From assembly GCA_903813345.2 (NCBI GenBank), contig CAIIXF020000007.1, forward strand, positions 36,052,538 through 36,116,537: a stretch of DNA of 64,000 bases. The letters are read 5' to 3'. The position numbers and the translations under genes are program-made. This stretch comes from Owenia fusiformis. Taxonomy: Eukaryota; Annelida; Polychaeta; Sabellida; Oweniidae. The notes under the pieces were generated by a model. It saw only the letters and a program-made list of their open reading frames with translations. It was not told the DNA's origin and ran no database searches. Shown piece by piece: positions 25,087 through 52,854 of the stretch (positions within the stretch are counted from its first letter, which is position 1; every line of letters begins with the position of its first letter).

Positions 25087-26945
25087 GCTATAGTCAACCA
25101 ACATCTAAATAATGACTCCCAGGCAATAACTTGAATTAAAATTTCATATATAGCCTACTAACAAATTGTTCCAACTACTTTAATCGTCCCATGCGGTAAC
25201 CATATTGTGCGTCACAGTAAAGGCACTTGATAGCAAAAACGACGAGGCGTAAACACGCGAAATGTCACAACCTGCTATTTGTTACAGCTAGTAGCATTAA
25301 GTGCATTCATTGTTTCGATATCCTTATTTGGTTCGTTCTATTCTACATTTACCAATCATATAGTAGTATACAAGTATAAATATATATTTTTCCACGAAAT
25401 ATTGGCAATGCGCTTTCATCGACCGCCTCGTGCCTGGTACATTGGCCACATACGTATAATGATGAACATTGATTAAATTCACTATACTTTTCTCAAAACC
25501 CAAATACCCTGGAGATCATTTCGTTCGTATCCAATAAAACGGTCAATAACCTCGAAATTTGCAGTTAAATGTTTGAGTCTACTATGTCCATACCTCCTCA
25601 AAGCATTAAACTGCAAGTAGGATGTCTCTTTATGTGTCTCTGGAAGTCCGAGAATAAATAATCCCCCCGGTTTGAGCATGCACCAAACCTGTGCAACAGC
25701 TTCCAGATCCCCATATGGATTCAGAGGGTCTCCATAGCGACCTAATCCAGAATGCTCAATTGATGAATACGATAATGCAAAATCGAACTCTTGAAAACTA
25801 CCATTTGCGTATTTTTTTGCCATATCATATGGGTGGATTTTGGTTATGTTAGGATGAAGGAACGGATTATTGTTGTATTCAAGTGTTGTCATGTGTTTTG
25901 CACCAGCAGATAATGCCAATGCTTCAAGCCAGGGTGATTGGGATCCAATCACAACTCCACGCTTGTTACTTATTTCATCTTTATATGCGTCAATTGACTT
26001 TTTAGGCTGAGGTACCTCATATGTCCCAATAATCTTCCCAGCCCTATCATCCTTTATTAGTTGTTCAATTGCTTCCTTTGAAAAATATTTCTCTCTGTTG
26101 ACCTTTGATATTGACTTCTTGTCATTAATGTACCAATAATTCTTATTAGGAAGCTCCCCATTTTGGGTAAACTCATCATATAATTCTGCAGGGATTTTCT
26201 TTGGTGGTACCTTTGGAGTTGCTGGATTGAGTGCCATACGTTTCATCATCGAACCACACTTGACATTTTTCCGGATAAATGGATAGTATTTCCCCTTCTC
26301 CTCGTCCTTAACTTTATAGCTACAGATCTCACCACACTCTAAAGTAGGCTCATCAGGTTCTGGATAAAGAAAAATAGCATGTATAATACATGAACAAAGG
26401 GTTCAATAGAATCAATTTAAAGAAATTCTTTTTGGGGGATCGAGAGGGCAGTGAAAGATGTGCGCCTCACCGGAAAATTTTTCTAGTTCAAGATGCTGTC
26501 TGGTTATCTCACTGAACGAAAGCCGTCCGTCCATTCATTTGTCCGGGCGATAACTCAAATACCGGTTGACGGATTAGATTTTAATTTTATAGGCTTTTGC
26601 CTTAGGGGGATATAATCTCTGCTTAAGAAGGAATATTCAATGTGGCCGCTCAATTTAAAGTGGCCACCATTTTTCGTAAATAATGAAATCACTCAAGAAG
26701 AAATTTTCAAGATGGCTGCTGAGTTTCAAAATGGCCGCCATTTTTCGTAAAAAACAATCTTAAATAACTCAAATACCAGTAGACAGATTTGGTTCAAATT
26801 TAATATGCTTATACCTGGGGACAAGAAGAGATTTTCAAGATGGTCCTTATTTATCAAAACATGTTTCGGTCAGTGGGATTTGCTACTCCTTGGAGTTGTT
26901 GTTTTCCAGTTATTTATGGGCATTTTTAATATATTTGAGTAAATA
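25087..26945. repeat. segmental duplication, copy 1
   Basis: The sequence from gctatagtcaaccaacatct to ttatgggcatttttaat recurs in direct orientation at 49692-52854. It includes the whole DUF268 exon 2, its splice acceptor and about 600 bases of intron. Confidence 0.9.
25482..26359 (-). CDS. DUF268 gene, exon 2 (main domain)
   Basis: The exon starts after the acceptor ttatccag (complement of 26360-26367) with AA completing a split GAA codon, and ends at TAG 25484-25482. It encodes 291 full codons. Its first conserved block is PDEPTLECGEICSYKV, upstream of the first ATG of the open frame, which shows that a further exon is needed. Confidence 0.88.
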
Positions 26946-50924: not shown

Positions 50925-51157
50925 TAATACATGAACAAAGGATTCAAAAGAATCAATTTAAAGAAATTAGATTTTTTTCAATCGTTTTTCTTTTTGGGGG
51001 ATCGAGAGGGCAGTGAAAGATGTGCGCCTCACCGGAAAATTTTTCTAGGCTAGTTCAAGATGCTGTCTGGTTATCCCTCTGAACGAAAGCTGTCCGTCCG
51101 TTCATTTTTCCGGGGCGATAACTCAAATAACGGTTGACGGATTTGATTTTAATTTTA

Positions 51158-52413
51158 CACGATGCCCATGTCAAGCAGCGTGCCTACTAGGCACGCAGTT
51201 TGAAAATCTGACAAACTGCGCGCATATTTCAAAATCGAAGACGGGGAGGGCACGACTCCCAAAAAGAGCCAGAATACGAAAAATACAAGGTTAGTCTCGT
51301 TCTAAAGACAGTACCATTCTGTGAAGATAAACTTAATTTACTCATAGTACTCAATGTTGTTCCCGATGTAAACCTAGTTATCTCAATATAAGGGTCTTAA
51401 GTAGCTTCTGTGTTCAAAATTCACAGTGTAAAGTTATATCTATGTCTTTTTATCGTCATTTGCCGTTTATTCAGCCATTGTGTCTGTGTATGCTAGGATA
51501 TATAGGATCACTCCATCTGATTAAAGCAGCATAGTTTGTGTTCAAAACGATAATACGCCATAAACGTGATTTAAACATTTTTCTTGTCAAACTGCGCGCC
51601 TATATTCACATGTATTTCCCAAACTGCGTGCCTAATATTTTCAAACTGCTTACCTACCCAAGCTTGTTTTGTATTATTAGAAAACGTAAGCGCCATATGG
51701 CATATATGTGTCTAATAGTAGAACCCCATAAGTGAAACACTATGAGAGTCCATCCACCAAGATGGTGATCTGAAAATAAAAGTTTTTCGTTCCCAACTTA
51801 ATTGTCACTTCTATTATACATTTTGACTTTCAATATGAAAATCTCATAAAATCTGACGATAAAGCAAAATTTTCAAAGCTATATGAAAAACACCTACACG
51901 TGCCTCTGTAGAAATTCCAATGATAATATGAATTTTTAATAGTGTATGCGCACAGTTTGTAATTTCTGGCTAAAATAGGCGCGCAGTTTGTGCTTTATTT
52001 CTTTTTAATCTCCTGATTATCTGTTTTATCTCGAAATATTTTGAATTATACATGATAAATGCGTAAAGAATTAAATATTAAACGAAGACTAAAGTATTTG
52101 TCATTTATGTTTAAAGTGCTAGATCGATTTACGTATAAATTTCCCGTTAAATCAGTGACGAAAATGCCATTAATCTGCTTATGTTTTAAAACTTAGATTC
52201 ATTTGCACATAGTTTTTGCTAGTATTTGCAAGATTCGTATATTCGCCACAGAATGAACGCATTGAACAAGAAAACAATGCAGGATAAATTTCTTTAAATT
52301 ACGTTTCAAAATACAGACTCCAACTTAAATGATGTAATGTTGCCAGGCACGCAGTTTGTGATCGAAACAAACTGCGCGCCTAAGTAGGCGCGCAGCTTGA
52401 CATGGGCACCGTG
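51158..52413. mobile_element. non-autonomous transposon, CACGRTG ends, 5-bp duplication (Transib/RAG-like?)
   Basis: The ends CACGATGCCCATGTCAAGC and its partner (right end, complement CACGGTGCCCATGTCAAGC) are flanked by TTTTA at 51153-51157 and 52414-52418. The duplicate locus near 26582-26592 has one TTTTA and no insert, which gives a natural empty site. The terminal repeats exceed 40 bases. The motif AAACTGCGCGCC and its complement recur at least eight times inside, mostly near the ends. No transposase frame. The length is 1256 bp. Confidence 0.85.
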
Positions 52414-52854
52414 TTTTATAAGCTTTTGCCTTATGGGGATAGAATCTCTGCTCAAGAAGGAATTTTCAATGTGGCCGCTCAATTCAAAATGGCCACCATT
52501 TTTCGTAAAAAAATGTAATCTTTGATAACTCAAATATGAGTTGACAGATTTGGTTCTAATTTTATATGCTGATGCCCAGGGACAAACATGACAAAGAAGC
52601 TTTGCTCAAGAAGAAATTTTCAAGATGGCTACTGAGTTTCAAAATGGCCGCCATTATTCGTAAAAAACAATCTTCAATAACTCAAATACCAGTGGACAGA
52701 ATTGGTTCAAATTTCATATGCTTATACCTTGGGACAAGAAGAGATTTTCACGCCGTTATTTATCAAAACATGTTTCGTTCGGTGGGATTTGCTACTCTGT
52801 GGAGCTGTTGTTTCCTAGTTATTTATGGGCATTTTTAATGTATTTGAGTAAATA

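Follow-up and report, generated by a model that had tools for sequence, protein, structure and literature searches.

A non-autonomous transposon family with CAC ends, 5-bp target-site duplications and arrays of a 15-base motif in Owenia fusiformis

The window, i.e., the whole 64-kb stretch of DNA analyzed here, carries an insert of 1256 bp at positions 51158 to 52413 (plus strand), and direct reading of 51153 to 52418 identifies an exact TTTTA on both of its flanks. On the top strand this copy starts with CACGATG and finishes with CACCGTG. Paralogous duplicated stretches at 49.7–51.2 kb and 25.1–26.6 kb, about 86–91% identical in three pieces, supply a natural empty site. Once joined, the flanks of the element align without a gap at the site to the paralogous locus (about 26.3–26.9 kb), where a single TTTTA is present; in that piece of the alignment 362 of 410 positions are identical, with gaps elsewhere. 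A first-pass annotation, made from the sequence of the window alone, had described the insert, its duplications and the empty site and had considered the ends known to the base, all of which is borne out by comparing filled and empty site within one window. The features are as follows.

26585 to 26589, no strand: single TTTTA of the paralogous uninterrupted site (direct reading and alignment)
51153 to 51157, no strand: left target-site duplication TTTTA (direct reading, compared with the empty site)
51158 to 52413, plus strand: non-autonomous transposon copy, 1256 bp (genome matches, consensus, frame scan)
51158 to 51164, plus strand: left terminal heptamer CACGATG (direct reading, end tabulation)
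51158 to 51188, plus strand: left terminal inverted repeat of 31 bp, with 90% complementarity to its right counterpart (repeat comparison)
52383 to 52413, minus strand: right terminal inverted repeat, its outermost heptamer being CACGGTG when read inwards (repeat comparison, end tabulation)
52414 to 52418, no strand: right target-site duplication TTTTA (direct reading)

The insert belongs to a repeated family. A search of the 498-Mb assembly (525 contigs) with the insert gives 624 first-look candidates, and among the 40 that were scored at least 36 places match at least positions 1–1252 or 38–1256 of the query in one piece at 93–100% identity. The end 19-mer CACGRTGCCCATGTCAAGC occurs 527 times in the genome with at most one mismatch (266 forward, 261 reverse), compared with 0 for a reversed control pattern; in the window, even with three mismatches allowed, it is found at the two element ends only (0 expected from 100 shuffles). 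These end matches suggest roughly 260 two-ended copies genome-wide. In viral contigs, there are 0 exact matches to the 19-mer. The family consensus of 1258 bp derives from 35 aligned copies, namely those of loci L001–L040 with one aligned piece longer than 1150 bp (L032–L035 being cut at one end by the alignment), and the copies are 96.5–99.3% identical to it and, for the most part, nearly constant in length. By itself, the family is unremarkable, a rather young group of transposons in a large genome. Beside a standard copy, L006:3714-4257 holds an internally deleted relative that is only 73–76% identical to the consensus, so that the lineage has old members as well, older than the recent burst. 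Within the part of the literature covered, no title or opening of an abstract describes this family, which may nevertheless have been published.

The longest stop-to-stop frame of the consensus comprises 126 codons, and no Pfam match over cut-off is obtained for 7 of the 18 consensus frames of at least 35 codons (best E 0.4). The description of the insert as a non-autonomous transposon is upheld, and the frames scanned have no recognized coding capacity.

Among 32 end pairs placed in loci L001–L040, 29 are flanked by a 5-bp duplication, one by 6 bp, a matching base extending the usual 5, and two by none (L022 and the inner copy of L025); the remaining eight loci (L003, L028, L032–L035, L039, and L040), in which an end is not aligned to the last base, were left unplaced. 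In the longer end pairs L041–L046, comparison of the printed flanks gives 5-bp duplications in six of six. Many copies with such duplications had been named by the first-pass annotation as part of what would support its reading, and these copies exist. The outer copy of L025, outside the 32 counted pairs, has a 5-bp duplication too; the inner one (L025:498-1757) sits inside a motif at about position 435 of the outer copy, which lacks two bases there.

Because L029 and L030 have one flank in common, the 30 duplications represent 29 distinct sites. At these sites the duplications are AT-rich, with G or C at 27 of 145 bases (18.6%) compared with 34.45% in the window (P 3e-5). The base after the right-hand duplication is a G in 15 of 29 cases (P 2e-5, uncorrected), and a C precedes the left-hand one more weakly (10 of 29, P 0.02, uncorrected). 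A palindromic target was considered and rejected, complementary pairs being found at 28 of 87 positions, which is not significant (P 0.19).

The left and right ends of the element differ. Among the CACGRTGCCCATG-type ends tabulated in the loci read, those of the left class carry CACGATG in 53 of 54 cases and those of the right class CACGGTG in 47 of 49, the other two looking like misclassed left ends; the CACGRTG ends that had been described for the single copy are thus confirmed for the family, one variant on each side. The right end of L015 is CACCATG, so other end forms occur, and mixed ends, in which one heptamer form is joined to the body of the opposite end, exist at 10 and 9 places genome-wide. 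Positions 8–10 of the ends read CCC. In 34 aligned copies, 0.34% of positions within the outermost 14 bases deviate from the consensus vs. 1.9% elsewhere, a figure that is biased downwards, as mutated ends trimmed by the alignment (e.g., L003 and L028) are scored as gaps and copies were selected for their resemblance to an intact-ended query.

A 15-base motif, CAAACTGCGCGCCTA, is found 11 times in the window with at most three mismatches, always within the element (0.38 expected). Its copies were located by motif scan, and the first inverted pair was evaluated by folding.

51172 to 51186, plus strand: motif copy, 3 mismatches to CAAACTGCGCGCCTA
51188 to 51202, minus strand: motif copy, 1 mismatch
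51172 to 51202, plus strand: inverted motif pair, hairpin-capable (-10.7 kcal/mol as single-stranded DNA, z -4.3)
51212 to 51226, plus strand: motif copy, 1 mismatch
51588 to 51602, plus strand: motif copy, exact
51620 to 51634, plus strand: motif copy, 1 mismatch
51642 to 51656, plus strand: motif copy, 3 mismatches
51945 to 51959, minus strand: motif copy, 2 mismatches
51976 to 51990, minus strand: motif copy, exact
52344 to 52358, minus strand: motif copy, 2 mismatches
52368 to 52382, plus strand: motif copy, exact
52385 to 52399, minus strand: motif copy, 1 mismatch

The earlier description of many motif copies on both strands near the ends stands as regards number and strands but not placement, since five of the eleven lie in the middle of the element, at 51588–51656 and 51945–51990. 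The family consensus likewise holds 11 copies at the same threshold (shuffle mean 0.015), at positions 15–69, 431–499, 792–837, and 1189–1244, which form roughly mirror-image arrays. Hairpin-capable inverted pairs adjoin both ends (z -4.3 and -3.5), and five copies have suffered short losses (about 8–19 bases, by eye) at these pairs, on the right in L032 and L033 and on the left in L034, L035, and L048. Internal motif copies are conserved no better than random interior windows (1.97% vs. 1.90%, P 0.73); motif conservation was therefore rejected as proof of function, and a role in binding is argued from number and placement only. Judged by number and arrangement, the arrays are putative transposase-binding sites.

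The asymmetric CAC ends, the 31-bp inverted repeats, the 5-bp duplications, the likeness among copies and the lack of recognized coding capacity argue for a non-autonomous cut-and-paste DNA transposon moved in trans. We consider this very probable, a judgment that covers no superfamily. A DDE-type transposase supplied by another element would act in trans and bind the 15-base motif arrays, pair both ends and cut before CAC on each side, and the ends would then be joined, with a stagger of 5 bp, to a target rich in A and T. The ends and the length of the duplication fit the broad EnSpm/Mirage/Chapaev/Transib type (CA..TG, 2–5 bp).

As to the superfamily, we consider it possible but less likely than not that the family is a non-autonomous member of the EnSpm/Chapaev type, perhaps of an undescribed lineage, in which CAC..GTG ends and motif arrays occur together with an unusual stagger of 5 bp. 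Numerous inverted subterminal motifs are usual in EnSpm, and the family resembles EnSpm/CACTA and Chapaev elements in its CAC..GTG ends and in the inverted arrays behind them. EnSpm and Chapaev elements generally produce duplications of 2–4 bp, from which the 5 bp observed here departs. In the accessible part of one source, the wider clade, called CMCT by its author and comprising EnSpm, Mirage, Chapaev, Transib and others, has CA..TG ends and duplications of 2–5 bp, whereas EnSpm families of fungi duplicate 3 bp (PMC12730594). Several families of the clade in this genome have long open frames, and the EnSpm profile PF02992 has 16 matches in it; however, the four of these 16 loci that were read, nine RAG1-related/Chapaev-like loci and a family with CATATCGAG ends are all without the present ends and motifs. 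Among them there are only isolated heptamer matches and, in the nine loci, one 32-bp interior match at E 0.04. A Plavaka profile finds nothing in the genome, which does not show absence, and one match below cut-off in a control genome.

The first-pass annotation had placed the element in, or close to, the class of Transib and ProtoRAG and had proposed a search for an autonomous partner encoding a RAG1-like or Transib transposase between the same ends. This membership is not supported. It would imply a Transib/RAG1-like transposase that is rare, diverged, missing from the assembly or extinct, and we regard it as improbable. The family shares with Transib and ProtoRAG the 5-bp duplication and a heptamer of the form CAC-N-R-TG, and with ProtoRAG the difference between left and right ends. 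In the available portion of PMC8289069, the ProtoRAG heptamer is CACTATG and that of the recombination signal CACAGTG; the latter agrees with CACGATG at 5 and with CACGGTG at 6 of 7 bases. Since CAC ends are also found in EnSpm, they are weak evidence of kinship with Transib/RAG.

The AT-rich target is the strongest evidence against this class: duplications of ProtoRAG, Transib, and vertebrate RAG are biased toward G and C, as stated in the part of the source at hand (PMC8289069), in contrast to the 27 of 145 bases found here. An excerpt of another source gives CCANTGG as the target of hopper and transib2, the latter from 7 insertions (PMC3276498). For protostome RAG-like elements, the sections available of PMC7204232 describe A-rich ends with AAA at positions 8–10, where the present family has CCC, a trait that need not hold for Transib; the same sections report non-autonomous RAG-like copies from pearl oyster and deuterostomes. 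The eleven motif copies, which reach about 500 bp inwards, also set the family apart from Transib and ProtoRAG. Two features of the class are thus present and two tested ones absent, and the element is not filed there.

Nor was a RAG1 or Transib transposase with these ends found, although the empty searches do not show absence. The RAG1 profile PF12940 gives no genome match at E up to 1, the control genomes being silent too. A query for a Transib-like C-terminus, run with no positive-control genome, has no genome match at E up to 10; it does match the solved HzTransib at E 4e-23. A query for the catalytic half of RAG1, likewise with no positive-control genome, yields four matches, all of one other family. 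The best (E 0.55) was rejected as partner, as it belongs to a 5.4-kb element with 24-bp CATATCGAG ends.

This 5.4-kb element, located at L067:760-6125 and, on the reverse strand, in L068, has no evident target duplication. Two copies possess uninterrupted frames of 726 and 729 codons. It matches a RAG1 profile below the cut-off (E 0.0022), and a frame in it has a chromodomain match (E 6e-6). Its protein has 42 genome matches, including distant relatives.

CAC heptamer-like ends together with a 5-bp duplication are insufficient to claim kinship with V(D)J recombination, since target-site preference and transposase must agree too. It is conceivable, if unlikely, that the family represents an undescribed lineage of the EnSpm/Chapaev/Transib clade in which RAG-like CAC ends occur together with a 5-bp stagger, an AT-rich target and long arrays of a 15-base binding motif, its transposase being encoded by, or ancestral to, a longer relative of about 2.1 kb. 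If the partner proves to be a new branch beside Transib, a 5-bp stagger and recognition of CAC can go together with an AT-rich target.

Traces of this longer relative come from the distribution of the exact motif TAGGCGCGCAGTTTG, which occurs 450 plus 431 times in the genome. With gaps of up to 2.5 kb allowed, the first 100 of these places, which all lie on C1, fall into 37 clusters; an exact copy of the end 19-mer lies no more than 3 kb away from 25 of them, and the other 12 have none at that distance. Seven of these 12 share another layout, at about 0-, 40-, 473-, 494-, 1704+, and 2071+ (position and strand), which is complete in one cluster and shifted or gapped in the other six (G000:C1:28343031-28345116 and six more places on C1). 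Its steps of 40, 21, and 367 bp resemble the 40, 22, and 366 bp of the standard element (motif positions 15, 55, 463, 485, 823, and 1189 in this comparison), and its middle is about 870 bp longer. These spacings suggest a related element about 2.1 kb long, whose end would be at least one base off the 19-mer. It may be a parent, a partner, or a second non-autonomous family, and it is the best lead to the partner.

A non-autonomous element of hAT5 type, i.e., of hAT groups with 5-bp duplications, is a doubtful further candidate. Subterminal motif arrays are known from hAT elements, and hAT ends are usually CAG or TAG. The dimerization domain PF05699 is abundant in the genome, with at least 147 matches at E up to 0.01 among the 150 of 183 candidates scored, and the 5-bp duplications resemble those of hAT5; in contrast, the ends are CACGRTG, and none of the 42 loci read among the 147 matches has these ends with an inverted repeat, or the motif. 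Two of the 42 were read at 6 kb and the other 40, which fall into 20 sequence groups, over 1.2 kb beyond the domain on a single side; the largest group appears to end in ...CAGCCTCTA. That hAT groups with 5-bp duplications exist is stated in the accessible part of PMC12730594.

Two apparent hAT ends were rejected. CATCGTG/CACCGTG, common to 10 hAT loci, is internal, as the likeness continues past it. CACGATGCC in L108, the single 9-base match among the 174,678 bases read, is taken as chance because neither the remainder of the repeat nor the motif accompanies it and because it adjoins a tandem repeat. A hAT, PIF or CMC partner with the same ends, which had been named beforehand as evidence against the Transib assignment, was thus not met among the EnSpm, Chapaev-like and hAT loci read (42 of 147 for hAT).

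Longer copies were also sought among 100 of the 527 end places, which are exact matches located on C1, C2, and the initial 19.6 Mb of C3. Six facing pairs lie 1.5–10 kb apart, and all were rejected as autonomous copies, being standard copies split by other DNA. In L041 the inserted DNA has a 990-codon frame and a frame repeated at both ends and looks like a retrotransposon. The listed end places include 18 unpaired ends, two of which are L017 and L035. Twelve of the other 16, each read for 599 bp, are standard throughout, and an autonomous element sharing more than 599 bp could hide there. L054 departs from the standard at about 552, L058 is standard for 108 bp and continues as unrelated sequence, and L047 and L052 contain inserts with ends that look mariner-like.

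Elsewhere in the genome, L115–L119 contain several families in which one frame is similar to the N-terminal part of RAG1. The matches are below cut-off: L119 has one to zf-AD (E 0.0015) and one to RAG1 importin-binding (E 0.018), and L117 has one to a RAG1 chain (E 0.011). Frames matching DUF1280 lie beside these RAG1-like frames, over cut-off in L115, L116, L118, and L119. Presumably these families are Chapaev or N-RAG-TP-like elements. Finally, nine EnSpm-like places on C1, C6, C7, and C9 have identical scores and frames of 608 codons, which suggests recent activity.
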